Shown: positions 10,379 through 49,339 of the stretch, one piece after another | How positions within the stretch are numbered: position 1 is the stretch's first letter | Layout of the letters: the number at the start of each line of letters is the position of its first letter | Assembly: GCA_902826695.1 (NCBI GenBank) | Contig: CADEFU010000005.1 | Location: 1 to 64,000 of the forward strand | Direction of reading: 5' to 3' | DNA: 64,000 nt | DNA from: an uncultured Alphaproteobacteria bacterium | GTDB taxonomy: Bacteria > Pseudomonadota > Alphaproteobacteria > Micropepsales > Micropepsaceae | Program-made: the position numbers and the translations under genes | The notes under the pieces: model-generated | Seen by the model: only the letters and a program-made list of their open reading frames with translations | Told to the model about the DNA's origin: nothing | Database searches by the model: none

Positions 10379-11044
10379 GTGAAACCCGCCTACATCCTCA
10401 TCGACTTCGAGAACGTGCAGCCCGACAAGATCGGCGCGCTCGACACCGGCGCGTTCAAGATCAAGGTCTTCGTAGGCGCCAAGCAATCGCGTGTGGCGCT
10501 GGGCCTGGCAAGCGCGCTGCAGCCGATGGGCAACGCCGTCGAGTACATTCAGATCGAGGGCAGCGGCCGCAACGCGCTGGATCTGCACATCGCCTATTAC
10601 ATCGGCCGCCTATCGGTCGAGGAGCCGGGCGCAGTCTTTCACATCGTCTCGAAAGACACGGACTACGACCCGCTGATCGACCACCTGAAAGGCAAGAACA
10701 TTCACTGCCACCGCTGGAGCGCGTTCGGCAGCATCCCCCACGCGCGCGCTCCCGCGCCGAAGCCGGCACCCGCACCGCGCTCGGCGGCAAAACCGAAACC
10801 CGCGCCGAAAACAACAGCGAAAGCCGCGCCGGCGACGGCATCCCAAGTCGACGAGGTCGTCGAGAACCTGCACAAGCGCGCCCGCGCGCGTCCCTCGACG
10901 CTGAAGGCGCTGACCAGCACGATCAAATCCCACTTCCGCGGTATCGCCATGACCGACGCCGCCGTCGACGCCATCGTCGAAGCGCTAAAGGCGCGCGGCC
11001 TGATCGCGGTGAAGGACGGCAAGGTGGCGTATCAGTTGACTTAG
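10379..11044 (+). CDS. NYN/PIN-like nuclease-fold protein with C-terminal winged-helix domain
   Basis: 221 residues from a GTG start with GAAGGAA upstream. The N-terminal 115 residues have a PIN-like NYN fold with acidic positions in ILIDFENVQP (D9, E11), NALDLHIAYY and FHIVSKDTDYDPLI, typical of a metal-dependent RNase site. A Pro/Ala/Lys linker (about 120-155) leads to a C-terminal region PSTLKALTSTIKSHF...IVEALKARGLIAVKDGKVAYQL that looks like a winged helix. It probably acts on RNA, but the target is unknown. Confidence 0.8.
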   Translation: MKPAYILIDFENVQPDKIGALDTGAFKIKVFVGAKQSRVALGLASALQPMGNAVEYIQIEGSGRNALDLHIAYYIGRLSVEEPGAVFHIVSKDTDYDPLIDHLKGKNIHCHRWSAFGSIPHARAPAPKPAPAPRSAAKPKPAPKTTAKAAPATASQVDEVVENLHKRARARPSTLKALTSTIKSHFRGIAMTDAAVDAIVEALKARGLIAVKDGKVAYQLT

Positions 11045-11517: not shown

Positions 11518-13707
11518 CTACTCTTCGCCCAAGACTTCTTTCACCTTGCTCGTCAGCTGCTTGAGGCTGAACGGCTTGGGCAGGAAGAGGCAGTCGTCCG
11601 GCCGGTCGGGTGCGTTGCGGAACGACTCTTCCGCGTAGCCCGAGATAAAGATCACGCGCAGGCCCGGCATCACTTTACGCATCTCGTTGACGAGCTGCGG
11701 CCCTTCCATGCCGGGCATCACGACGTCGGAAATCAGAAGGTCGATCGGCCCATCGTGTCCGCTGACGAGTTCGAGCGCTTCCTCGCCGCCGCAGGCGTCG
11801 AGCACCTTGTAGCCGCGCATAGTGAGCGCACGAACCGCGAAATCGCGCACCGCATCTTCGTCCTCGACGAGCAGGATCGTACCCACACCGGTAAGATCGC
11901 GCGCCACGGACGGTTTCTCGGGTTCGGCAACGACCGGCGTCGCCGCCGGAACATGGCGCGGCAGATAGATGCGGAACGTCGTGCCCTTGCCCACTTCGGA
12001 TTCGGGGAAGATATAGCCGCCGGTTTGCTTCACGATGCCGTACACGGAGGCAAGCCCCAGCCCCGTGCCGTGCCCCTTCTCCTTCGTCGTGAAGAACGGT
12101 TCGAAGATCTTGCCGAGGTACTCCTTGGCGATCCCCATGCCGGTATCTTCGACTTCGAACGTCACATAGTCGCCCGACGGCATCAGCACTTGGCCGAGCG
12201 ACATCGTTTCGCCGATCGTGACGTTCGCGGTGCGAATGGAGAGCGTGCCGCCGTTCGGCATCGCATCGCGCGCATTGACCGACAGGTTCATCAGCGCATT
12301 GCCGACCTGCGTCGGATCGGCAAACACGGGCCACAGATCGCGCCCATGCTCGACCTTGAGCTTCACCCGGTCGCCGATCAGACGGCGCAGCGTCACCGAC
12401 CAGTCGGCGACGAGATCGGTGAGATTGACGACTTCCGGCTCAAGCGTTTGCCGGCGCGAGAACGCAAGCAGTTGCCGCACCAGCGACGCCGCGCGCAAAC
12501 CGGTATTGCGAATATCGTTCAAATCCGCGAACGAAGGATCGCCCGGCTGATGCCGCTGCAGCAGCAACTCCGCATACCCGTTGATGACCGTGAGCAGGTT
12601 GTTGAAGTCGTGCGCGATGCCGCCGGCGAGCTGCCCCACCGCCTGCATCTTTTGCGACTGCGCGAACTGCGTCTCAAGCGCCGTCTGCCCGGTCGTGTCG
12701 ATCAGATAAATTGCAAAGGCAGGGCCACCCGCCTCGGTGTTCAAGCGGCTGGCAAACAATTGCGCCGTGCGCTCGTTGCCGGACTTGAAGCGAACATCCA
12801 CCGGCGCCCGCGAAACCTCGCCCACGTCCAAAGACGACAACCGCGCCTTCATCTCCTGCACCGCTTGATCGCGCAGGAACTCGAATACCGGCCTGTCTTT
12901 GAGCTTCTTTGCGTCGGTCCCGATCAGCGCCGAGAACGCCGCGTTCCACTCCGCGATCACACCGTCATCGCCGATCAACGCAACGCCAACCGGCGCGTCG
13001 TGGATGAACTGGGGAATGCGCGCCGCCGCACCCGGCAACAGCGGCTGATCGAACGGTCGAAGCTGGACGACGACCGACTGCTTCTGCGCATCCACGCTCT
13101 GCAGCACCGGCCGCCGCGGCGACGCATCGGTGATCCGCCACACGGTGTGCCCCGCACCGCTGATCGGCGCGACCGCAACATGCACCCACTTGCCGGCCAC
13201 GTTCTTGAGCTTCAGCTCTTCCTCGTGGCTTTCCTTCAGACTCGCCGCCCGCACAAGCCGGTAAAGCCGTTGCGCGGTTTCCGCATCGCCCGAGAAGCCC
13301 GCAACCGGCAAAACTTCGCCGCCGGACGAGCTGAAACCAAACGTCTTGCGCCACGCGGGGTTTGCATAGGCAATCGACCCATCCGGCGCCGTGATCGAAC
13401 AAGCCCGCTGATCGGTATCAAGCGCCGCCCCAAACAACCGAGCCGGGGCCTCGGGCGGCACCAACCGCCCGGAGGAGATCGCAAACATCAAACTCGCGCC
13501 GCAGAGCGTGAGACCGACAAGGAAAGCAAGGCCCCCGAGACCCGCAGCTTCCGGAAACACGATGACCGCAATGCCGACGATGCACGCAATCGCAAACAGG
13601 CCAAGCGCCCATTGCCCAGCCGACAAACGCTGCGGCAACGTCCACGTCCACACGGCGGCGGACGGTTCGGAAGGAGTTTCGGTCGGAGGCTCAATCGCTG
13701 GCTTCAT
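11518..13707 (-). CDS. cckA: Hybrid histidine kinase CckA
   Basis: 729 residues. Two N-terminal TM helices (about 31-51 and 58-77) are followed by two PAS-like regions (about 95-195 and 225-345). HisKA follows with H366 in AGGIAHDFNN, then HATPase (N-box NARDAM at 478-483, G1 DTGMGI 521-526, GHGTGLGLASVYGIVKQ) and a receiver domain (E615-D616, phospho-acceptor D661 in SDVVMPG, K711). This is the layout of CckA, which phosphorylates CtrA and CpdR through ChpT and switches to phosphatase with c-di-GMP. The frame is open 72 codons upstream, but the ATG before KPAIEPPTE is the better start. Confidence 0.92.
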   Translation of the reverse strand: MKPAIEPPTETPSEPSAAVWTWTLPQRLSAGQWALGLFAIACIVGIAVIVFPEAAGLGGLAFLVGLTLCGASLMFAISSGRLVPPEAPARLFGAALDTDQRACSITAPDGSIAYANPAWRKTFGFSSSGGEVLPVAGFSGDAETAQRLYRLVRAASLKESHEEELKLKNVAGKWVHVAVAPISGAGHTVWRITDASPRRPVLQSVDAQKQSVVVQLRPFDQPLLPGAAARIPQFIHDAPVGVALIGDDGVIAEWNAAFSALIGTDAKKLKDRPVFEFLRDQAVQEMKARLSSLDVGEVSRAPVDVRFKSGNERTAQLFASRLNTEAGGPAFAIYLIDTTGQTALETQFAQSQKMQAVGQLAGGIAHDFNNLLTVINGYAELLLQRHQPGDPSFADLNDIRNTGLRAASLVRQLLAFSRRQTLEPEVVNLTDLVADWSVTLRRLIGDRVKLKVEHGRDLWPVFADPTQVGNALMNLSVNARDAMPNGGTLSIRTANVTIGETMSLGQVLMPSGDYVTFEVEDTGMGIAKEYLGKIFEPFFTTKEKGHGTGLGLASVYGIVKQTGGYIFPESEVGKGTTFRIYLPRHVPAATPVVAEPEKPSVARDLTGVGTILLVEDEDAVRDFAVRALTMRGYKVLDACGGEEALELVSGHDGPIDLLISDVVMPGMEGPQLVNEMRKVMPGLRVIFISGYAEESFRNAPDRPDDCLFLPKPFSLKQLTSKVKEVLGEE

Positions 13708-14053: not shown

Positions 14054-14407
14054 TTAGGCCGACTGCGCAACCGGCTCGTCGGCTTCCACGCACTGCTCGA
14101 GTTCGGCTGCGTGCTGCAGGCAGGCTTCGTAAGCAGCCTGCGCTTCCGGCGACGTGCCGGTCATCTGCATCGCGTCTTCCGCCCGCACATAGCCGCGCGC
14201 GTCCGCCTCCGGATGACCCGGCATATAGAGCTCACGAAAGTCATACCCAAGATCGACATCGACGAGCGACAACGGCTGGCCATAACTCGGCCCGAACGCG
14301 GCGTGCAGACGCGCGCCATGGGCCAGGTCTTCACAAACGTCTCGCATATAGGCGGTCTGAGCGCGCAGCTCCGACACCGCAAGCAACATCGACTTCAACG
14401 GATCCAT
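14054..14407 (-). CDS. Divergent FlgC-like flagellar rod protein
   Basis: 117 residues beginning MDPLKSMLLAVSELRAQ, very like the start of the flagellar proximal rod protein FlgC. The later segment FRELYMPGHPEADARGYVR...EAQAAYEACLQHAAEL parallels the FlgC stretch PxHPAADExGYV...EAxRSYEANL. The usual rod signature VVSENIANA is altered to DVCEDLAHG, and the hydrophobic C-terminal rod helix is replaced by an acidic tail. No flgB or fliE is adjacent. I read it as a second, specialised or decaying FlgC paralogue. A GTG at 14422 would add five residues. Confidence 0.65.
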   Translation of the reverse strand: MDPLKSMLLAVSELRAQTAYMRDVCEDLAHGARLHAAFGPSYGQPLSLVDVDLGYDFRELYMPGHPEADARGYVRAEDAMQMTGTSPEAQAAYEACLQHAAELEQCVEADEPVAQSA

Positions 14408-14464
14408 TTTTCTCGTTCCCACCGCACTAAGGCGCGTTTGGAACAGACAATGCCCCGGGAACGT

Positions 14465-14479
14465 TTAAGGCCACGTTGA
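14465..14479. promoter_or_regulatory. CtrA-like box upstream of the FlgC-like gene
   Basis: TTAA-GGCCACG-TTGA, one mismatch from the CtrA consensus TTAA-N7-TTAA, 58 bp before the start codon. A second site, TTAA-CGGAGTC-CTAA, lies at 14492-14506. TTAA is rare in this GC-rich DNA, but each match alone is weak. Confidence 0.35.
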
Positions 14480-14502
14480 GAGTGCGCGAAGTTAACGGAG
14501 TC

Positions 14503-16296
14503 CTAACTCGCCGCAGCAACCCGCACAGCCGGCACCTCGCTGAGCGCCTCGGCGCGAGCCTCGACAAGAAGTTTCAGCCGCGCGGCGATGCGTTCGGCCC
14601 CGCGCCCGTCGAGGTTCATACGCCCCGCCGCACTCATCGCCCGGCGATGCGCCGCGTCGTTGAGCAGATCGGTGACCGCCCCTGCGATCTTGCTCTCAGC
14701 CGCCGCCGTCATGCCGACAAGCGAGTAACCCATACCGGCCCTCTCGAACGCCGACGCCGACAGCGCCTGCTCATCGCGCGTACAGACATAAAGCGCCGGC
14801 ACGCCAAGCGCCGCCAACTCATAGGCCGCGCCGCCGAACCCGATCAGCGCAAGATCCGCGCCGGTCATCAGCTTCGGCAAATCCTCGCCGCTGCGCACGA
14901 TCGTGAAACGTGGCGCGTACCGGGCAACCTGTCCTTCAAGCTCTCGCGGTGCACCAAGTCCAATCACGACCGTCGCATCGAACGACGGCTCAAGCCGGGC
15001 GAGCGCCCGCACACAAGGCACCGTCATTGCATCGCTATCTGGCCCCATCGACACCAACACGTGCGGCCGCTCACGCGGCCCAAGCGGCGCGCGGTCGCTG
15101 TGCGCAAGAGAGACCCATTCCCACCCAACATAGGGTTCGGCTTCCGCACCTTCCCAGTTGAGCCCAAATACCTGCGGCAGCGGCGTGTAGAACGAAGCAT
15201 CCGCCGCAAGCCGCCGCGCACTCATATCTTCAACGGTAGCCACGATTGCATCGGCGCCACGCAACCGCATCACCGATGTCGCCGACAATGCCGTACAAAC
15301 GTCGAGCACGATCGCCGCAGGCCGCTGCACCTCGGCAAGCGACAAAAGCCAGTCGATCTCGCGCACGCCCGCAGGCATCACGTCGGCCGCAAAGCCGGCG
15401 TCCGCAACAACCTCGGCCGCGTCTGCATGCGTAACCGCAAAGCGCACCGCGAACCCTTCGCGATCGCGCAACGCCTGCGCAATCGTAAGCGACCGCCGTA
15501 CGCGCAACAGGCCGAACAGCGGATCCTCGTCGCACCGCATGATGACCGCGCCGCCGCTCGCGCGCGCTGCCGGTTCCGCGTTCAAATCGAGCAGCGCCGG
15601 TTCGCGATTGAGCAACTGCACCAGATCCGTCAGCGTCGCCTCGCCGGCTTGCGCATGCAGCCGCGCATAGATCGCCTCGATGAACGTCAGATCGGCCGGT
15701 GTATCGACCGACAACCGCGCACCCTTGAACTGCCACTGCGCCGGCACGTCGATCTGAGCGACACGCACGAAATCCGGATGCATCTTGAAATAGGCGGTAA
15801 CGTACTGGCGTGCGATCGGATCGTCATGCGCCTTCACGATGAGCTTATCGACCGCCCAGCGGCTCATAACCTCCGCACTGTCATGGACCGCGGCTACGCC
15901 CGCCCGCGGCATCACGAAATCCGCCTGCTGCCGCATCATCTCGCCGATCAGGTGATCGACATAGGCCGCATCGACCAACGGCGCATCCGCATTGACGCGT
16001 ACAATGACGTCGGGATCGATTGCATACATCGCAAGCGCCAACCGGCCGAGCACATCGTCCTCCGGCCCGCGCACGACCTTCACACCCTGCGCTTCTGCAT
16101 AAGCGGCAAGCTCGTCGTCGGCCGGATCGCGCGTCGTCGCCACGCAGATCGTCTCGATCAACTGCGACTTACGCAACCGATGCAGAATGTGCCAAAGCAG
16201 CGGCTCACCGGCGATCGGCTTCAACACCTTGCCGGGCAACCGCGTGGAACGCATTCGCGCCTGCACGACAGCCGCGATGTGAGGTTTCTTCGTCAT
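14503..16296 (-). CDS. SpsF-type cytidylyltransferase fused to PseG-like domain
   Basis: 597 residues. Residues 1-235 are a CTP-dependent nucleotidyltransferase (VVQARMRSTRLPGKVLKPI, then RVNADAPLVD and the end of an SpsF/NeuA-type fold). Residues about 255-590 are a GT-B-like domain related to PseG/FlmD, the UDP-sugar hydrolase or glycosyltransferase-fold enzyme of pseudaminic acid synthesis (ADLALIGFGGAAYELAALGVPALYV). In nonulosonic acid pathways these steps are normally separate proteins. The product is probably a CMP-activated surface sugar or a precursor. It is divergent from the sulfotransferase; a start at 16311 is possible but less likely. Confidence 0.8.
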   Translation of the reverse strand: MTKKPHIAAVVQARMRSTRLPGKVLKPIAGEPLLWHILHRLRKSQLIETICVATTRDPADDELAAYAEAQGVKVVRGPEDDVLGRLALAMYAIDPDVIVRVNADAPLVDAAYVDHLIGEMMRQQADFVMPRAGVAAVHDSAEVMSRWAVDKLIVKAHDDPIARQYVTAYFKMHPDFVRVAQIDVPAQWQFKGARLSVDTPADLTFIEAIYARLHAQAGEATLTDLVQLLNREPALLDLNAEPAARASGGAVIMRCDEDPLFGLLRVRRSLTIAQALRDREGFAVRFAVTHADAAEVVADAGFAADVMPAGVREIDWLLSLAEVQRPAAIVLDVCTALSATSVMRLRGADAIVATVEDMSARRLAADASFYTPLPQVFGLNWEGAEAEPYVGWEWVSLAHSDRAPLGPRERPHVLVSMGPDSDAMTVPCVRALARLEPSFDATVVIGLGAPRELEGQVARYAPRFTIVRSGEDLPKLMTGADLALIGFGGAAYELAALGVPALYVCTRDEQALSASAFERAGMGYSLVGMTAAAESKIAGAVTDLLNDAAHRRAMSAAGRMNLDGRGAERIAARLKLLVEARAEALSEVPAVRVAAAS

Positions 16297-16326
16297 GGCG
16301 CCCCGCCCCAAAAGCGTAAATTCGCG

Positions 16327-16341
16327 TTAACGAATTCTAAA
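16327..16341. promoter_or_regulatory. CtrA-like box in the SpsF-PseG/sulfotransferase divergent region
   Basis: TTAA-CGAATTC-TAAA, one mismatch from TTAA-N7-TTAA. It is placed 31 bp before the minus-strand start and 97 bp before the plus-strand start, so it could serve both genes. Confidence 0.4.
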
Positions 16342-16437
16342 GGCTCAACCGTTACCAAGTTCATAACAATCACACCCTGCGCCGGTGCGTGGCCGACGGC
16401 ACGCACCGTTACACGCTCGACCGCTTCTCGGATTGCG

Positions 16438-17274
16438 ATGACCTCTGAAACAAAACCGTTCTTCGTTGTGTCGTCTGGACGTTCGGGCACCGCGATGATG
16501 GAGCGTCTGTTCTCTTGCTTCCCGCAAGTCGAGATGCATCACGAATACATGGTGCATCACGTTCAACCGGCCGCCGTGAAGTACCACATGGGCATGATCG
16601 GCCTCGGCGAAGCGCTGCACACGCTGCGCGCCACCCATGCCGCCGCCATCCACTATTCCGATGCGCCGCTTTGGGGCGACTCGTCGAGCAAGCTGTCGTG
16701 GCTGATCCCGGCACTCGATCATTTGTTCCCGAACGCGCACTACATCCACCTCGTGCGCGATGGCCGCAAGGTCGCAAGCTCCTACCTGCACAAGCACGGC
16801 GCCGAGTGTTACGACGGTCACGCGACCGGCATCATGCAGCGCTACTACGACAGCCGCGGCGAGCTGCCCGCGCCGCCGCCGGACAAGAAGTACTGGTGGC
16901 CGCTGCCGCCGCGCGGTCACGCGCAAGAGCTTGAGTTCCTGACCTACGACCAGTTCCAACGCATCGCGTTCCATTGGGGCGAAATCAATCGCACCATCAT
17001 GCACAACCTCGACAACATCCCCGTCGAGCGCCGCCACACCGTACGCCTCGAAGACCTGGCGACGCGCGGCGACACGCGGCAAGGATTGCTAAACTTCTTA
17101 GGGCTCCCCTGGGACGACCGCATCATGGGGCTGCTCAACCGCCCGCACAACGTTACGCGGCCGGAGGACTACCCGCTTACGCCTGAGCAGACGCAGCAAT
17201 TCAATTTGATCGCCGGCGACGTGATGCAGACGTTGGGCTACGACCGCCGCGCCGAATACCGCGTCGCTTACTAG
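16438..17274 (+). CDS. PAPS-dependent sulfotransferase
   Basis: 278 residues. FFVVSSGRSGTAMMERLF (about 8-25) is the 5'-phosphosulfate loop of the sulfotransferase fold, and YIHLVRDGRKVASSYLH carries the 3'-phosphate-binding Arg and Ser. The domain continues to LEDLATRGDTRQGLLNFLG, as in Sulfotransfer_1/3 proteins. It would move sulfate from PAPS to a hydroxyl, most likely on a carbohydrate in this sugar-enzyme setting. The start is set by ATG after CGGATTGCG; the much longer open frame upstream is antisense to the fusion gene. A methyltransferase follows on the same strand. Confidence 0.85.
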   Translation: MTSETKPFFVVSSGRSGTAMMERLFSCFPQVEMHHEYMVHHVQPAAVKYHMGMIGLGEALHTLRATHAAAIHYSDAPLWGDSSSKLSWLIPALDHLFPNAHYIHLVRDGRKVASSYLHKHGAECYDGHATGIMQRYYDSRGELPAPPPDKKYWWPLPPRGHAQELEFLTYDQFQRIAFHWGEINRTIMHNLDNIPVERRHTVRLEDLATRGDTRQGLLNFLGLPWDDRIMGLLNRPHNVTRPEDYPLTPEQTQQFNLIAGDVMQTLGYDRRAEYRVAY

Positions 17275-17302
17275 ACACAATCTGCAAAGCACGGCGCGGC
17301 TC

Positions 17303-17317
17303 TAAACCCGTCTTTAA
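17303..17317. promoter_or_regulatory. CtrA-like box upstream of the methyltransferase
   Basis: TAAA-CCCGTCT-TTAA, one mismatch from the CtrA consensus, located between the sulfotransferase stop and the palindrome in front of the methyltransferase. Confidence 0.35.
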
Positions 17318-17326
17318 CCGCAAGCC

Positions 17327-17353
17327 CTCAACGTTCGATCATCGAACGTTGAG
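17327..17353. promoter_or_regulatory. 27-bp perfect palindrome before the methyltransferase start
   Basis: CTCAACGTTCGAT (17327-17339), a central C, and ATCGAACGTTGAG (17341-17353): 13-bp arms with no mismatch. It ends seven bases before the ATG. It could be an operator, or a hairpin in the mRNA leader that hides the ribosome site. It has no U-tract, so a simple terminator role is less likely. Confidence 0.6.
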
Positions 17354-17360
17354 TTGACCG

Positions 17361-18503
17361 ATGTCCCATGCCTGCGACCTCTGCCGCGCCGCCTCGCTAG
17401 AACCGGTCTACACGCCCGAGAAGACCGCGCAGAAGCAATCGGTCTTCCTCTGCACGCACTGCGGCCTCATGCAGAGCAACCCCCGCGCCGCCAAGAGCGC
17501 ACCCAAAAGCGCCAAGCAGCGCCTCGGCAAGAGCATCCGCGCAGAAGCAAACCTCGCCACCCTTCGTCCGTTCCTAAGCAAGCACAAGACACTGCGCGTG
17601 CTGGACGTCGGCGCCCATCGCGGCACGTTCGCGCTTGAGCTCAAAGCCGCCTACCCGCACGCAAAGATCATCGGCATCGAACCCGACGCAAGAATCGTAA
17701 GCCCCTGGGCCGGCAAGGCGGGCATCTGGCTGCACGCCCGTTTCGAAGACACGCGCATAGAAGACGAAGGCTTCGACCTTGTCTACTCGTGCCACACGCT
17801 CGGCCGCCTTGAGAGCGCCCGCGAAGCGCTTCTGGCCCACCGCGCGGCGCTCGCGCCGGGTGGTTACATCCTGATAGAAGTGCCCAACGTCGCGCAGATC
17901 GGCTCGACTGACATCGTTCACGAGTTCTTCGCCGACAAGCACCTTTACCACTTCTCGCGCCGCACGCTCGTACGCATGCTGAAAGTGTGCGGTCTGCGCG
18001 CGGTCGCGATCGCCGACAGCCGCGACACGGCGAACCTGACCGTCATCGCCGTGAAGGGCGACGAGCCGCACCTCGCGGTCGAAGCCGACCCGCAGGAAGT
18101 CGAGGCCTCGGCCGCGCTCATCTCCGCCTACACAGCCGCGCGCCGTCAGAACCTGAACGCGCTTTCACAAGTCGCCCGCACCATCGACGCGATGGCGCCG
18201 CGCACAGTCGCTGTCTGGGGCGCGGGCCGGCTGCTGGGCAACTTGATCGAAAACGGCGGCCTCAAGCCCCAATCGCTCGCCGCAGTCGTAGACAAGAACT
18301 TGATCCGCTACACGAATGAAGCACACGGCGTGCGCCTCTCGCCGCCGGACCTCCTCGCGCGCCTAAAGCCCGACATCATCGTCGTGCTCTCGCGCAGCCT
18401 GACCAGCGATATCTGTCGCGAAGCCGAGGCACACGTTCCGGGCGCCGAAGTCATCGCCTATACGGAACTCCTCGCGCGCGCCAAGGAACACGCCGCCGCT
18501 TGA
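17361..18503 (+). CDS. SAM-dependent methyltransferase, sugar C-methyltransferase type
   Basis: 380 residues with three parts. An N-terminal zinc ribbon has CDLC near the start and CTHC about 25 residues later. A class I SAM-binding domain has VLDVGAHRGTFALEL (about 75-90) and acidic GIEPDA. A C-terminal domain has AVWGAGRLLGNLIENG, a Rossmann-like motif. This order (Methyltransf_13, _11, _14) is that of TylCIII/NovU-like enzymes that methylate carbon or oxygen of nucleotide sugars. It follows the sulfotransferase by 86 bp and probably acts on the same glycan. Confidence 0.85.
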   Translation: MSHACDLCRAASLEPVYTPEKTAQKQSVFLCTHCGLMQSNPRAAKSAPKSAKQRLGKSIRAEANLATLRPFLSKHKTLRVLDVGAHRGTFALELKAAYPHAKIIGIEPDARIVSPWAGKAGIWLHARFEDTRIEDEGFDLVYSCHTLGRLESAREALLAHRAALAPGGYILIEVPNVAQIGSTDIVHEFFADKHLYHFSRRTLVRMLKVCGLRAVAIADSRDTANLTVIAVKGDEPHLAVEADPQEVEASAALISAYTAARRQNLNALSQVARTIDAMAPRTVAVWGAGRLLGNLIENGGLKPQSLAAVVDKNLIRYTNEAHGVRLSPPDLLARLKPDIIVVLSRSLTSDICREAEAHVPGAEVIAYTELLARAKEHAAA

Positions 18504-18607
18504 GCGGCGAACGCACAAGCGACACCACATCCTAAAGGCGAACGGCGCCCGCGCCATTGCCAAGCCCCCGCGCGTACTTCTAACTAGCGCGCATATCGGG
18601 GGGATAA

Positions 18608-19879
18608 GTGAGCGGCAATCAAGACCAGCTGGCGGAAGCACGCGCGAATACTTATGTCATTATCCTGGCCGTCCTTATCGGCCTAAGCATGATGGATCGC
18701 CAATTGCTGGCAGTCGTCGCCGAACCCGTCAAACACGAGTTCAAACTCAGCGACACGGATCTGGGCTTACTCACCGGCACGCTCTTTGCCGTTATCTTCT
18801 CGATCGCCTCGATCCCGGTCTCCTGGGCCGCCGACCGCATCAGCCGCACCGGCATTTTGACCGTCTGCGCAACGTTCTGGGCGCTCTGCACCGGCATCGT
18901 CGGCGCGAGCACCGCCTACGTGCATCTTGCAGCTGCGCGCATCGGGCTCCCAGTCGGCCAAGCGGGCTGCAACCCATGCGGCCAATCGCTGATTGCCGAC
19001 TACGTACCGCCTGAACGCCGCGGCCGCGCGATGGCTATCTACGTCATGGGCGGCCCAGCGGGCCTGATCGCGGCGGGCACTTTGGGCGGCCTCTTGAACG
19101 ATCAGTTCGGTTGGCGCACGGCGTTCTATGTCTTGGGGGGGATCAGCCTGCTGGCGGCGTTTATTGCCGCCATTGTGCTTCCAGAACCGAAGCGCAAGCG
19201 CGGCGAGATACCTGTCACGATCCACGCCGCGGCAACCGCCGTTCCAGGCGCCTACCGTGCGCTCACATTGAAACCGGCGTTCCGCTATTTCCTCGCCGGC
19301 AACGCATTCGTCTCGATCGCGATTTACGGCAGCCTGGTTTGGGGCACGACATATGTCGTGCGCTTCTTCAATTGGACGCCGGGTGAAGCAGGTGCGGTCG
19401 TCGGCACGCTTGGCGCCGTCGTGAGCCTTGGCGGCGTGTGGCTCGGCGGCCGCATGTCGGACTACCTCTCGACGCGCGATGCACGCTGGCTGCTGTGGCT
19501 GCCGGCACTGGGCCTTGTTCTCGCAAGCCCCTGCACTCTAACCGCGGCCTTCGCGCCGACCGTCCTTATCCTGTTCAGCGCTTCCTCCGCAGAAGCCTTC
19601 TTTCGCACCATCACGCTCGCGCCAGCCGCAGCCGCGCTCCAACGCCTAGCGCCGAATGACGCGCGCGCCCGCGCCGCCGCGACCGCAGGCGTTGTCGGCA
19701 CCCTGGTCGGATTAGGGCTCGGGCCACCGCTCGTCGGCGCCATCAGCGACGGTCTAGCACCGCTGATGGGTCACGACAGTCTCCAATACGGCCTCGCCGC
19801 GCTCGTGATTCCGCAAGCGCTCGCCGCCTATTGCTTCTGGCGCGCAGCGCAATCGCTGCGCGAAGATATGGAGGAATAA
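18608..19879 (+). CDS. Spinster-type MFS transporter
   Basis: 423 residues, twelve predicted TM helices. The N-terminus YVIILAVLIGLSMMDRQLLAVVAEPVKHEFKLSDTDLGLLTG is typical of spinster-like MFS permeases of proteobacteria, with the loop motif WAADRISRTGIL after TM2. The GTG start is supported by GGGGGGAT just upstream. The substrate is unknown; export or uptake of a small organic compound is likely. It sits between the sugar-modification genes and flbT, but I cannot tie it to them. Confidence 0.85.
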   Translation: MSGNQDQLAEARANTYVIILAVLIGLSMMDRQLLAVVAEPVKHEFKLSDTDLGLLTGTLFAVIFSIASIPVSWAADRISRTGILTVCATFWALCTGIVGASTAYVHLAAARIGLPVGQAGCNPCGQSLIADYVPPERRGRAMAIYVMGGPAGLIAAGTLGGLLNDQFGWRTAFYVLGGISLLAAFIAAIVLPEPKRKRGEIPVTIHAAATAVPGAYRALTLKPAFRYFLAGNAFVSIAIYGSLVWGTTYVVRFFNWTPGEAGAVVGTLGAVVSLGGVWLGGRMSDYLSTRDARWLLWLPALGLVLASPCTLTAAFAPTVLILFSASSAEAFFRTITLAPAAAALQRLAPNDARARAAATAGVVGTLVGLGLGPPLVGAISDGLAPLMGHDSLQYGLAALVIPQALAAYCFWRAAQSLREDMEE

Positions 19880-19884
19880 AAAAA

Positions 19885-19913
19885 CGGGGTCGGCAAATAC
19901 GCTGCCGACCCCG
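19885..19913 (-). terminator. Rho-independent terminator of flbT
   Basis: 11-bp perfect stem CGGGGTCGGCA / TGCCGACCCCG with a 7-base loop, followed on the minus strand by TTTTTTTATT. Orientation and U-tract fit the end of the flbT transcript. The T-tract overlaps the stop codon of the convergent MFS gene. A second, weaker 8-bp hairpin (GGTTGAGC / GCTCAACC) lies at 19947-19976. Confidence 0.88.
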
Positions 19914-20009
19914 CCCCTCGACTAACCCCCACCGCTGCCGAAGCTTGGTTGAGCTTGTTTTTCTTATTGCTCAACCGATGCGAACAACCCGGTGTCGTGG
20001 TCCCGCTTG

Positions 20010-20414
20010 TTAGGCCGCGTTTTCCACGAGTTCCCGACCCGATTGTTCGAAGTCGAAGAGTTGACGGCACTTGATCAGTGCCTTGTAGTATTGCCGCGCC
20101 AGCATATCGCGCGAGATCGCGACACACAGGCGAAGCGTTTCCCCATCCGTGATGTCTTGCATGTACGCCGACATCTGCGTCACGAATTCGTCGTACAGCC
20201 CTTCGCCCTGCCCCTCGCCCATATAAAGGTTCAAGATCGCGAGATAGATGCGCTTCGCCGGCGTGTCGGCGTCGGCCGCTTGCAGAATGTCGCGATCGCG
20301 CAGCACCGTCACTTGGTTCTCGACGAGAAAGCTCGTGGGCCGGTCGCCATTGATCAGCACTGCGCCGTTCAAAACGAACTTTTCACCAGGCTTAAGAGAA
20401 AGTTTCAGCGTCAT
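20010..20414 (-). CDS. flbT: Flagellin regulator FlbT
   Basis: 134 residues that match FlbT over the full length: MTLKLSLKPGEKFVLNGAVL, then the conserved LVENQVTVLRDRDILQ and the helical AKRIYLAILNLYMG block. In Caulobacter FlbT binds the 5' leader of flagellin mRNA and lowers its stability, so that flagellin is made only after hook assembly, with FlaF acting oppositely. No flaF or flagellin gene lies within the window. It is divergent from the FlmG-like gene and ends at a strong terminator. Confidence 0.93.
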   Translation of the reverse strand: MTLKLSLKPGEKFVLNGAVLINGDRPTSFLVENQVTVLRDRDILQAADADTPAKRIYLAILNLYMGEGQGEGLYDEFVTQMSAYMQDITDGETLRLCVAISRDMLARQYYKALIKCRQLFDFEQSGRELVENAA

Positions 20415-20602
20415 GCGCGTCAGGCCTTCGTGTCTGTCTACGCAACCGACACTAGGCCGTCAGGGTTAACACCGCACTTCCGCCGCAAATCTTTTTAGTC
20501 AACAAAGCGTTGAGATCGCGCACGCCCGCCACCCGCACACTTAGCGCCGCATTAAAGTGTCCCCACGATAATAAGCGTGCAAACAGAGCGGACAAGAAGA
20601 AG

Positions 20603-22273
20603 ATGGCCCAAGCCGCGCGCACCGCAAACAGCCCAGAAGCGCTGCCACCCGAAGCATCGGGAGCACTGCGCGAAGCGCTTGCGCACTACAAAAAGGGCGA
20701 GTGGGCGAACGCAGCCGTTGCCGCCGCAAAAGCCGCCGAAGCTCACGCACGTTGCACAACGGCCTATCACCTCTTGGCGCTCGCGCTCGGCAACCTCGGT
20801 CAGCGCACCAAAGCGTTCGAGATGTTCGAGCGCGCTCTTGCGCTCGATCCGACGAATGCCGCGATTTATCTGGATGTCGGCAACGCAGCGTGGAACGCGC
20901 GCTGGCTCGATGACTCCGAGAAGGCACTCCGCGCCTATCTCGAACTGCGCCCGCACTGCCCAATAGGCTCAAGCAGTCTCGCCGGTTGCCTGCGCGACGC
21001 CGGCCGCTTCGACGACGCCCTCGCCGTGGTGACAAGCGCTCTCGCGCACACGCCAAACGCTGCAGATTTGTGGAACGCGCGCGGCACGATCCTCTGCGAG
21101 CAGCTCGACTTCGCCGGCGCCATAGCGTGCCACGCCAAAGCCCAACGCCTCGGCCCAAACGCACCGCAGGCATTCCACAACGCCGGCCTTGCGCACACAA
21201 ACGCCGGAAACTTCCGGGAAGCCGCAGTCAACTTCACCCGCGCGCTCGATCTCGGCACCAGCGACCGCGAACGCGCCGAGATCCGTCACGCACGCGCTCT
21301 TTGCCTGGCTGCCGCAGGAAAACTCAGCGAGGCGTGGCCCGACTACGAAGAGCGCCACAACCCGAGCTTCGCCCAAGCGACCGCGTTCGCGATCGCGGCG
21401 CCACGCTGGCAGGGCGAAGAGCTGACCGGCCGCAATCTCCTCGTCATCGGCGAACAAGGCCTCGGCGACGAGATCATGTTCGCAAGCATGATAGACGACC
21501 TCATCGGGCGCACCGGCCCCGGCGGCAAGGTGATGCTGGCGGTCGATCAGCGCCTCGTGCCGCTGTTCCGGCGTTCGTTCCCAGCCGCCCATGTCGGCGC
21601 AGAGCTCTATAAAAAGGACAACACCCGCCCAACCCGCATCGTGCCCTGGGCGACAGGCGATCTCGCACCCGATGCCTTCACCGCGATGGGAAGCCCGCTG
21701 CAGCACCTGCGTCCCAGCATCGACACGTTCCCCGCACGCGCTTACCTGAAGCCCGATGCCGCCCGCGTGCGCTACTGGCTCAACCGTCTGGCCGCGCTGG
21801 GCCCCGGCCCCTATGTCGGCATCAGCTGGAAATCGATGCTGGTCACGCCGCAACGCGCAAAGTTCTTCAGCACGCTCGAACAGTGGGCCCCCGTCCTCGA
21901 CAAGACCTCCGTCAAGTTCATCAACCTGCAATACGGCGACTGCCAAGCCGAACGCGACGCCGTGTGTGCGAAGCTCGGCGTTACAATCCACAACCTATCG
22001 GGGCTCGATCTCACAAACGATATCGATGACAAAGCCGCCCTCTGCGACGCGCTCGACCTCGTCATCTCAGCGCCGACCGCGCCCGCGATGCTCGCCGCCG
22101 CCGTCGGCACCGAAACCTGGCTCGTCACCGCGACCCGACTCTGGCAGCAACTCGGCACCGATCGCTATCCCTGGTACGCGAACACCCGCGTTCTGACCCC
22201 GGACAGGTTCGCCGACTGGCCCGCGCTCATGACGCGCCTCGCTTGCGAACTCGAGGAATTCGCGTCACGCTGA
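20603..22273 (+). CDS. TPR glycosyltransferase, FlmG-like flagellin modifier
   Basis: 556 residues. Residues 1-240 hold about five TPR units (for example AKAFEMFERALALDPTNAAIYLDVGNA-type repeats). Residues about 270-550 form a GT-B-like region opening with LLVIGEQGLGDEIMFASMI, the motif of TPR-linked glycosyltransferases, and ending with a GT9-like nucleotide-binding region (VISAPTAPAMLAAAVGTETWLV). This is the architecture of Caulobacter FlmG, in which the TPR part binds flagellin and the GT part attaches a nonulosonic acid. Position beside flbT supports it. The start is the ATG after AAGAAGAAG; earlier in-frame codons lack support. Confidence 0.75.
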   Translation: MAQAARTANSPEALPPEASGALREALAHYKKGEWANAAVAAAKAAEAHARCTTAYHLLALALGNLGQRTKAFEMFERALALDPTNAAIYLDVGNAAWNARWLDDSEKALRAYLELRPHCPIGSSSLAGCLRDAGRFDDALAVVTSALAHTPNAADLWNARGTILCEQLDFAGAIACHAKAQRLGPNAPQAFHNAGLAHTNAGNFREAAVNFTRALDLGTSDRERAEIRHARALCLAAAGKLSEAWPDYEERHNPSFAQATAFAIAAPRWQGEELTGRNLLVIGEQGLGDEIMFASMIDDLIGRTGPGGKVMLAVDQRLVPLFRRSFPAAHVGAELYKKDNTRPTRIVPWATGDLAPDAFTAMGSPLQHLRPSIDTFPARAYLKPDAARVRYWLNRLAALGPGPYVGISWKSMLVTPQRAKFFSTLEQWAPVLDKTSVKFINLQYGDCQAERDAVCAKLGVTIHNLSGLDLTNDIDDKAALCDALDLVISAPTAPAMLAAAVGTETWLVTATRLWQQLGTDRYPWYANTRVLTPDRFADWPALMTRLACELEEFASR

Positions 22274-22278
22274 CGCGT

Positions 22279-22638
22279 ATGACACCGGCCGACATTGAAA
22301 AATTGCTTCTCGCCCTCCCCGGCGCCACGCTCTCGATCCAGTGGGGCAATGACCGCGTCTTCAAAGTCGGCGGCAAGATGTTCGCGGTCATTGGTTTCCA
22401 CAACGACAAAAGCTTTGGCGGCATGTCGTTCAAAGCCTCAAGCGAAAGCTTCCGCATCCTGACGGAGCTTCCCGGCATCAAACCCGCCCCCTACCTCGCC
22501 CGCGCCGAGTGGGTCTATCTCGACAAACCCACCCGCCTGCCCGCGAAGGACCTCAAAGCCTACCTCACCCGCGCCCACGCCATCGTAGCGTCAGGTCTGC
22601 CGAAGAAAACGCAGAAGCAGCTGGGGATCGCGCCTTAA
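22279..22638 (+). CDS. MmcQ/YjbR family protein
   Basis: 119 residues starting MTPADIEKLLLALPGA. The pattern LPGATLSIQWGNDRVFKVGGKMFAVIGF, then YLARAEWVYLD and a helical C-terminus, is that of the YjbR/MmcQ fold, a double-wing DNA-binding-like family of unknown role. It begins five bases after the glycosyltransferase stop and is probably co-transcribed with it. Confidence 0.82.
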   Translation: MTPADIEKLLLALPGATLSIQWGNDRVFKVGGKMFAVIGFHNDKSFGGMSFKASSESFRILTELPGIKPAPYLARAEWVYLDKPTRLPAKDLKAYLTRAHAIVASGLPKKTQKQLGIAP

Positions 22639-22706
22639 ACTTGCGAGCGGGCTTCCGACCCCCTAGGTTTGGCCCAACACCTATTCACCAACACCTAGGA
22701 TGACCG

Positions 22707-23555
22707 ATGAAGAAGTTCGAAGGCACCAGCAACTACGTCGCGACCGATGATCTGCGCATTGCGGTGAACGCCGCGATCACGCTCGAGCGCCCGTTGCTCA
22801 TCAAAGGCGAACCCGGCACCGGCAAGACCGTGCTCGCGTTCGAGGTGGCGAAGGCAATCGGCGTGCCGATCATCCAATGGCACATCAAGTCGACGACGAA
22901 GGCTCAACAGGGCCTCTACGAATACGACGCGGTCAGCCGCCTGCGCGACAGCCAGCTCGGCGACGCGCGCGTGAAGGACATCAAGAACTACATCTCGAAG
23001 GGCAAACTCTGGGAAGCGTTCACGAACGACCAGCGGCCGGTCCTCCTGATCGATGAAATCGACAAGGCCGACATCGAGTTCCCGAACGACCTTCTGCTCG
23101 AACTCGACCGTATGGAATTCTTCGTCTACGAGACCGGCGAGACGATCAAGGCCAAGCAACGCCCGATCGTGATGATCACCTCGAACAACGAGAAGGAACT
23201 GCCGGACGCCTTCCTGCGCCGCTGCTTCTTCCACTACATCAAGTTCCCCGACCGCGACACGATGACGAAGATCATCGACGTCCACTACCCGAAGATCATG
23301 GACAAGCTGGTCGGCGAAGCGCTGAACATCTTCTACCAAATCCGCGAAGTGCCCGGCCTCAAGAAGAAGCCGTCAACGTCGGAGTTGCTCGACTGGCTCA
23401 AGCTGCTCATGGCCGACGACATCAGCGCCGAAACCCTGCGCGAACGCGACCCGTCGAAACTGATCCCGCCGCTCCACGGCGCACTGCTGAAGAACGAACA
23501 GGACGTACACCTGTTCGAGCGCCTGGCATTCCTCGCGCGGAGAGAAAGGAACTGA
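22707..23555 (+). CDS. MoxR-type AAA+ ATPase
   Basis: 282 residues. Walker A GEPGTGKT (34-41), Walker B LLIDEIDKAD, sensor-1 IVMITSNNEKELPDAFLRRC with the arginine finger. The sequence is close to the MoxR/CbbQ/NorQ group, which work with a VWA protein as a chaperone pair to insert metals or activate enzymes. The VWA partner is at 24803-25978, separated by two unrelated genes. AGGA is seven bases before the ATG. Confidence 0.93.
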   Translation: MKKFEGTSNYVATDDLRIAVNAAITLERPLLIKGEPGTGKTVLAFEVAKAIGVPIIQWHIKSTTKAQQGLYEYDAVSRLRDSQLGDARVKDIKNYISKGKLWEAFTNDQRPVLLIDEIDKADIEFPNDLLLELDRMEFFVYETGETIKAKQRPIVMITSNNEKELPDAFLRRCFFHYIKFPDRDTMTKIIDVHYPKIMDKLVGEALNIFYQIREVPGLKKKPSTSELLDWLKLLMADDISAETLRERDPSKLIPPLHGALLKNEQDVHLFERLAFLARRERN

Positions 23556-47809: not shown

Positions 47810-49339
47810 ATGCACCAGCGACGCAACATCCTCTTCATCACCGCCGACCAGTGGCGCGGCGAATGCCTGTCGGCGCTGAACCACCCGGTCGTGAAGACCC
47901 CGAACCTCGACGCGCTCGCCCGCGAAGGCACATTGTTCGCGCGGCACTTCTCGAACACCTCGCCGTGCTCGCCGTCGCGCGCGACGCTGCACACCGGTCT
48001 CTACCAGCACAATCATCGCGTGACGATGAACGGCACGCCGCTCGACCGGCGCCACGCGAACTGGGCACTGGAGGCGCGCAAGCGCGGCTACGACCCCGCG
48101 CTCATCGGCTACACCGATCAAACCGCCGACCCGCGCGATCTCGCACCGAACGATCCGCGCCGCAACACCTACGAAGGCATCCTACCCGGTCTGACCGCGA
48201 TCGCCGACACCGGCATGGATCATCCGGGGCCTTGGGCCGAGTTCCTGCGCGCCCGCGGTTACGAACTCCCGCACGAGGAGCGCTTCATCATTTGGATGCG
48301 CGAGAGCGGCCCCGACTACGAAGACGGCGCCGAGCACCCGAAGCCGTGGTTCGTGAAAGCGGAGCACAACGACACGACCTGGCACGTCGACCAAGCGATC
48401 GACTATGTCAGCGAACGCCGCAACGATTCCTGGATCCTTCACCTCTCGCTGCTGCGTCCGCACCCGCCATGGGTCGCGTCCGAACCGTGGAACCGGCTCT
48501 ACGACCCTGAAACTCTGTCGCCGCCCCAACGCCGCGCCACGCCGGACGACGAAGCGAACCAGCACCCCTGGCTCGCTTACCAACTGAAGCACCCGCTCTA
48601 TCAAGCGCCGGACGACATCCGCAAACTGAACCGCATGCGCGCCGTGTATCTCGCGATGATGAGCGAGGTCGACGAAAATCTGGGCCGCCTGTTCGCGCAC
48701 CTGAAACTCGAGGGGCTCTGGGACGACACGCTGATCGTCTTCACCAGCGATCACGGCGAACAGCTTGGCGACCACTGGCTGCTCGGCAAGTCGAGCTACT
48801 TCAACGAGTCGTTCGCCGTGCCGCTGATCGTGCGCGACCCGCGCCCGGCCGCCGACCTGACGCGCGGCGCAAGGGTGCGCGAATTCACCGAGCACGTCGA
48901 CATCATGCCCACCTTGCTCGATTTCATCGGCACGGACATCCCGCCGCAATGCGACGGTCGCTCGCTCATGCCGCTGATCGAGAAGGGCGCGGCCCCGTCC
49001 TGGCGCAAGCACGCGCACTTCGAGTTCGACTTCCGCGACGCAAGCTTCGACGGCGCCGAACACGCGCTCGGCCTCAAACTGCACCAGTGCAACTTCAGCG
49101 CCATCCAGGACGAACGCTTCAAATACGTGCACTTCGCGAACCTGGCCCCGCTGTTGTTCGATCTTCAGCGCGACCCGTATGAGTTCACGAACTTGGCGGG
49201 AGCGGCCGACTACGCCAAAGTCACGCTCGCCTATGCGCAGAAATTGCTCTCCTGGCGCCTCACACACGAAGACCAGACGCTGACCCACCTGATGGCAACC
49301 GACAAAGGCACGATCGCCCGCCCGAGCCCTCGCTTCTGA
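47810..49339 (+). CDS. Phosphonate monoester hydrolase/sulfatase family protein
   Basis: 509 residues. NILFITADQWRGE has the metal Asp (D13). The formylglycine motif is C53-S-P-S-R57, so the Cys must be converted by a maturation enzyme not in the window. TSDHGEQLGDHWLLGK (D314, H315) completes the metal site. The close likeness to rhizobial phosphonate monoester hydrolase runs to the C-terminus (LSWRLTHEDQTLTH). It likely cleaves phosphonate monoesters or phosphodiesters. Its stop overlaps the cupin start. Confidence 0.9.
   Translation: MHQRRNILFITADQWRGECLSALNHPVVKTPNLDALAREGTLFARHFSNTSPCSPSRATLHTGLYQHNHRVTMNGTPLDRRHANWALEARKRGYDPALIGYTDQTADPRDLAPNDPRRNTYEGILPGLTAIADTGMDHPGPWAEFLRARGYELPHEERFIIWMRESGPDYEDGAEHPKPWFVKAEHNDTTWHVDQAIDYVSERRNDSWILHLSLLRPHPPWVASEPWNRLYDPETLSPPQRRATPDDEANQHPWLAYQLKHPLYQAPDDIRKLNRMRAVYLAMMSEVDENLGRLFAHLKLEGLWDDTLIVFTSDHGEQLGDHWLLGKSSYFNESFAVPLIVRDPRPAADLTRGARVREFTEHVDIMPTLLDFIGTDIPPQCDGRSLMPLIEKGAAPSWRKHAHFEFDFRDASFDGAEHALGLKLHQCNFSAIQDERFKYVHFANLAPLLFDLQRDPYEFTNLAGAADYAKVTLAYAQKLLSWRLTHEDQTLTHLMATDKGTIARPSPRF

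Follow-up and report, generated by a model that had tools for sequence, protein, structure and literature searches.

The proteins FlmG, FlbT and FlgC are commonly counted as flagellar components. FlmG of Caulobacter binds flagellins through its TPR domain and transfers pseudaminic acid with its GT domain, and transcription of flmG, flmAB and neuB is promoted by CtrA (PMC7591256). The locus described here lies in a window of 64 kb, the whole stretch of DNA analyzed, which is part of contig 5 of an alphaproteobacterial genome (G000; 4.3 Mb, 30 contigs, 99.7% complete). An earlier note on this DNA had named six gene families within 8 kb. All six proved to be well named and to be real ORFs at that place, with an MFS gene in addition. 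The note had interpreted them as a flagellin sulfo-/methyl-glycan system. The gene families and their clustering with flagellins in relatives were borne out, but not a working system in this organism, which is excluded in G000 because flagellin, the export apparatus and NeuB are all missing. Comparison with relatives shows that, as read from the DNA, the locus is a reduced flagellar-export and FlmG-type flagellin-glycan cluster and that this reduction is common to two species.

The absence of genes in G000 is based on family searches, which were also applied to its congener G007, a draft assembly of 94% completeness. In neither genome was a match found for FlhA (PF00771), for the N-terminal (Flg_bb_rod, PF00460) or C-terminal (Flg_bbr_C, PF06429) domain of rod/hook proteins, or for a flagellin above threshold. 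The NeuB family (PF03102) was likewise missing from both and found in the flagellate G002. FlhA was present in 8 of the 10 remaining genus members, and among 96 genomes of the family FlbT was detected in 72 and FlhA in 65. FlbT without an FlhA match was also seen in further family genomes, several of them poor bins. Five of the better ones (G104, G109, G101, G069 and G064) were checked and each retains at least one rod/hook protein, so that G000 and G007 stand out among the FlbT-positive, FlhA-negative genomes checked. Two of the five, G109 and G101 (loci L074 and L076; 99% and 93% complete), carry a canonical FlbT, no FlhA match and a single rod/hook match, possibly as a result of further flagellar loss or of incomplete bins.

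The sole flagellin match in G000 was one sub-threshold Flagellin_N hit to a protein of 219 amino acids that lacks the N-terminal flagellin part (L001:1252-1908, minus strand; G000:C2:477958-478614). It is 91% identical to its counterpart in G007 and about 80% to those of flagellate congeners, and almost every genome examined has its gene beside a Nudix gene; one of these genomes, G027, gave no FlhA match. The protein is apparently a non-flagellar flagellin homologue. It was considered as a partner of FlmG/FlbT and is conserved, but the same Nudix neighbourhood occurs in flagellates and in G027, so that a specific tie to this system was rejected.

Co-occurrence of the families in relatives, also raised in the earlier note, was found as well: in flagellates a single cluster unites the genes for the sulfotransferase, two methyltransferases, NeuB, PseB/PseC, SpsF-PseG, FlmG, FlbT and flagellins. 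Locus comparison placed this intact cluster in the flagellate congeners at the same site, between cckA and yjbR/moxR. Allowing for differences in gene content, its order is cckA, flhB, fliR, fliQ, fliE, flgC, flgB, fliO, fliP, SpsF-PseG, NeuB, methyltransferase 2, sulfotransferase and methyltransferase, and then transketolase halves, SDR, ATP-grasp, GH57-like, PseB, PseC, MFS, FlaG-like, flagellins, FlaF, FlbT and FlmG; the fli/flg names derive partly from position and length, and fliO is uncertain. The intact cluster was located at L025 and L026 in G002, L023 and L024 in G001, and L027 and L028 in G003. MFS is part of it only in G002, where yjbR and moxR follow FlmG. With its sulfotransferase, two methyltransferases and split transketolase, the extended cluster of the flagellate relatives is a candidate source of a flagellin sugar not described so far. 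In these relatives, which carry flagellins, NeuB, the sulfotransferase and both methyltransferases, the sulfo-/methyl-modified flagellin sugar suggested in the earlier note may exist.

The gene order in the window equals that of the intact cluster minus blocks, with only a truncated flgC, SpsF-PseG, the sulfotransferase, the methyltransferase, MFS, flbT and flmG retained. PseB and PseC are not at the locus and had no credible match within the window. The left border of the ancestral cluster is a cckA-like hybrid histidine kinase gene (11518-13707, minus strand; Pfam HATPase_c, HisKA, PAS and Response_reg) whose position is conserved in relatives and which is directly followed by flhB in the flagellates; the right border is formed by the yjbR and MoxR-type AAA genes (22270-23555, plus strand). 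Beyond the left border, a gene for a PIN7/NYN-domain protein (10379-11044) lies between a rhomboid-like gene and cckA. G007 has the identical retained gene set in identical order on a single contig, and gene trees joined the two genomes as sisters with 99-100% support. The shared collapsed layout implies that the loss is older than their split, and a 17-residue gap in FlgC and a lost PseG histidine, common to both, make a single ancestral reduction the simplest reading.

The deletions were clean at the two junctions tested, namely the end of flbT and the spacer between SpsF-PseG and the sulfotransferase gene, and no pseudogene traces of deleted genes could be detected in the locus gaps. This spacer (16297-16437), a divergent promoter region, is homologous to the neuB upstream region of flagellate relatives, including a conserved GTTAAC at 16326; neuB and methyltransferase 2 have been excised around this promoter region, and SpsF-PseG and the sulfotransferase gene now share the former neuB promoter. 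At its 3' end, flbT is now closed by an intrinsic terminator (19877-19914, minus strand) homologous to the one behind a flagellin gene of G002. Its stem reads GTCGG/CCGAC here and GCCGG/CCGGC in G007, so that pairing is conserved through a compensatory change of both arms. GTTAAC occurs seven times in the 64 kb, and three of the copies fall in the three upstream regions of the locus, about 420 bases in total. Besides the copy at 16326, these are at 14491, in the intergenic region between the FlgC-like gene and the 3' end of SpsF-PseG (14408-14502), and at 20465, in the flbT/flmG divergent promoter region (20415-20602) that is conserved with G007. Within the locus as it stands in the window there is no full CtrA box (TTAA-N7-TTAA); only the GTTAAC half-sites, putative sites of CtrA binding, are shared. 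Rfam gave no match, and the sole PADLOC match was a similarity to a methyltransferase domain.

The retained proteins differ widely in their state of preservation. The truncated FlgC-like protein (14054-14407, minus strand) has no Pfam match and only weak NCBIfam FlgC matches (E 8e-6 and 5e-5; 26.2 bits against a cut-off of 170 and 23.6 against 102.1). Besides the central gap, its N- and C-terminal parts have diverged, and of the 68 positions that do not vary among flagellates, 37 are altered in both aflagellate genomes, while the middle motif FRE.YMPGHP.AD.RGYV is retained. An equivalog match together with conserved terminal rod segments was not found, and the remnant can hardly act as a rod subunit any longer. 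Its structure model (pTM 0.27) was too poor for use.

The SpsF-PseG fusion (14503-16296, minus strand) combines an SpsF-type cytidylyltransferase domain (PF02348, E 5.5e-27), which is conserved and keeps its CTP-binding motif, with a PseG-type domain (TIGR03590, E 2.9e-18, below cut-off) that appears damaged. Its motif GLGHVRR has become GLLRVRR in the protein from the window, and GLLRVRR/GLGRVRR across the aflagellate pair, while GGSDP is lost. The histidine, invariant in aligned relatives, is arginine in both G000 and G007; we take this residue of GxGHxxR to be catalytic. A sequence search of the PDB gave no relative for the PseG domain. The PAPS-type sulfotransferase (16438-17274, plus strand; Sulfotransfer_3, PF13469, E 5.4e-15) keeps 111 of 113 flagellate-invariant residues and is 89% identical to its G007 counterpart and 86% identical to those of flagellate relatives; its 5'-PSB-like SSGRSGT and 3'-PB-like RDGR...S motifs are present and conserved. 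A sulfatase-like ORF with a CSPSR motif lies in the same window (47810-49339). The SAM methyltransferase (17361-18503, plus strand; Methyltransf_23) has a CxxC...CxxC N-terminus and a Methyltransf_14-like, C-methyltransferase-like C-terminus; its conserved LEH is changed to LGR/LER in the two aflagellate genomes. The MFS transporter (18608-19879, plus strand) has a counterpart in G002 at the same relative position, between pseC and flaG.

FlbT (20010-20414, minus strand; Pfam E 9.2e-37) scored 126.3 bits in Pfam, above the cut-off of 27, and 122.2 bits against the NCBIfam equivalog, slightly below the cut-off of 125. In the comparison across the family, the proteins of G000 (125.7 bits) and G007 (123.9 bits) are the lowest-scoring full-length FlbT, the next one reaching 140.4. 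The FlmG-like protein (20603-22273, plus strand) consists of TPR and GT-B glycosyltransferase parts, as indicated by Pfam TPR matches and a structure model (mean pLDDT 85) with a TPR superhelix. The top Foldseek matches of the model were SPINDLY and OGT, with low TM-scores. In the GT domain 86 of 111 conserved residues are kept.

Selection after flagellum loss was estimated with a codon model on six genomes, with branch lengths common to seven genes and one omega per gene and branch class; MFS was left out. On the terminal branches of G000 and G007, omega was 0.034 for the sulfotransferase (background 0.074), 0.092 for the methyltransferase (0.058), 0.100 for FlbT (0.067), 0.128 for SpsF-PseG (0.078), 0.133 for FlmG (0.094) and 0.226 for the FlgC-like protein (0.025). 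These values are model-dependent because synonymous divergence is high, each terminal branch carrying about 0.85 neutral substitutions per site. An omega of 1 was rejected for all six genes tested (2dlnL 103 to 1335), and likewise when FlgC, FlbT, the sulfotransferase and the flagellin-like protein were each fitted alone with branch lengths left free. All seven retained genes are free of premature stops in both G000 and G007, against a neutral expectation of roughly 9-41 per gene per branch. The six retained genes tested have been under purifying selection since the two genomes split.

Within FlmG, the GT domain showed no relaxation (0.090, background 0.087) and the TPR domain had an omega of 0.188 against 0.102. 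The corresponding values were 0.078 against 0.038 for the SpsF domain and 0.171 against 0.111 for the PseG domain. In the FlgC-like protein the middle motif gave 0.032 and the C-terminus a near-neutral 0.54. Omegas on the stem branch were high (FlgC 4.5, FlbT 1.4, methyltransferase and FlmG about 1, control gene 0.68). This fits a burst of change at flagellum loss, but the stem values are given little weight, since this branch is short, its estimate is poor and the value of the control gene is likewise elevated.

The reading that we favour, at a probability of roughly 0.55, is that a glycosylation/sulfation module with its regulator has been repurposed from the remnant of a lost-flagellum cluster. 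The comparison shows that an ancestor of G000 and G007 lost flagellum, flagellins, NeuB and the PseB and PseC of the cluster, and that the deletions were clean, with promoters and a terminator staying behind. The FlmG catalytic domain, the CMP-sugar synthetase domain, the sulfotransferase, the methyltransferase and the MFS protein would now synthesize a modified sugar and transfer it to an acceptor other than flagellin, perhaps a protein or a surface polymer, and FlbT would be retained as a putative post-transcriptional regulator. Since NeuB is missing, the activated sugar cannot be a nonulosonic acid made de novo by NeuB. CbMaf, a different flagellin glycosyltransferase, takes Kdo instead of the sugar native to it (PMC11339370). 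A CMP-Kdo-like donor is therefore conceivable here, but is no more than one guess. An unrelaxed GT domain beside a shifted TPR domain is the trace that we infer would be left by retargeting of FlmG to another acceptor. The more specific proposal, that FlmG after the loss, with its catalytic domain kept and its acceptor-binding TPR changed, forms with the CMP-sugar synthetase, sulfotransferase, methyltransferase and FlbT a non-flagellar system, controlled by FlbT, for protein glycosylation and sulfation, is tentative and has perhaps one chance in three. A single module is opposed by the PseG domain and the methyltransferase motif, which look damaged in both genomes, as expected if it were partly decaying, and the collapsed form is carried by these two genomes only.

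Among the other readings, a doubtful one, at about half the weight of repurposing, is that each gene serves a purpose of its own, with the sulfotransferase acting, for instance, on another surface polymer and FlbT on other mRNAs, and that they are neighbours only because the deletions spared them. Constraint does differ strongly from gene to gene, from an unrelaxed sulfotransferase to a much changed FlgC-like protein and a PseG domain without its invariant histidine; against this, the functions of the FlmG GT domain, cytidylyltransferase domain, sulfotransferase and methyltransferase fit together, and the divergent promoters that they share have been kept. It is unlikely that all are slowly decaying, non-functional relics with reading frames open by chance. 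Raised omega in several genes, the near-neutral FlgC C-terminus and the lost PseG and methyltransferase motifs would agree with decay, but not one of the roughly 9-41 stops expected per gene per branch was seen, and the six genes tested lie far under an omega of 1, with the FlmG GT domain and sulfotransferase unrelaxed. Flagellar genes that are present in the organism but missing from the assembly are very improbable. G000 is in 30 contigs, and elsewhere in the family there are genomes in which FlbT and rod/hook proteins occur with no FlhA match, but completeness is 99.7%, four independent flagellar families are missing together, the locus is contiguous with genes visibly excised, and G007 repeats both absence and layout. 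Least credible, at next to no chance, is a working flagellin sulfo-/methyl-glycan system; the clustering with flagellin genes in flagellate relatives speaks for it, and the lack of flagellin, FlhA, rod/hook proteins and NeuB in G000 speaks against it.

Two related species without a flagellum, in which selection still maintains FlbT and the catalytic domain of FlmG, amount to a natural experiment on the function of these proteins without flagellin. If FlmG was indeed retargeted through its TPR domain, this would show how the acceptor specificity of a TPR-type O-glycosyltransferase evolves. No description of a flagellar-sugar gene remnant kept without a flagellum was found in the literature.

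Compared with FlmG/pseudaminic-acid flagellin O-glycosylation in Caulobacter crescentus (PMC7591256), the window likewise encodes an FlmG with N-terminal TPR and C-terminal GT-B-like parts, with flbT beside flmG, and homologues of NeuB, PseB and PseC are also found in the clusters of its flagellate relatives. The genome differs from that system in having no flagellin, NeuB or flagellum, in the disappearance of PseB/PseC from the cluster, in the loss of the invariant PseG histidine, and in the presence of a sulfotransferase and a methyltransferase. In Caulobacter, FlbT and FljJ control the translation of flagellins (PMC7591256). An FlbT is encoded and conserved here too, but full-length flagellins, structural or FljJ-like, are gone, which leaves FlbT no flagellin gene as a target and only the 219-residue protein in its non-flagellar neighbourhood. 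The FlgC-like protein is homologous to the proximal rod protein FlgC and keeps the FRE.YMPGHP.AD.RGYV segment, but its centre is shortened, its C-terminal helix is unconserved, the rod motifs are lost and partner rod proteins are missing. Domain similarity to the SpsF/PseG nonulosonic acid enzymes extends to the SpsF-type CTP-binding motif, whereas the PseG-type catalytic motif is lost and the genome has no NeuB-family synthase.
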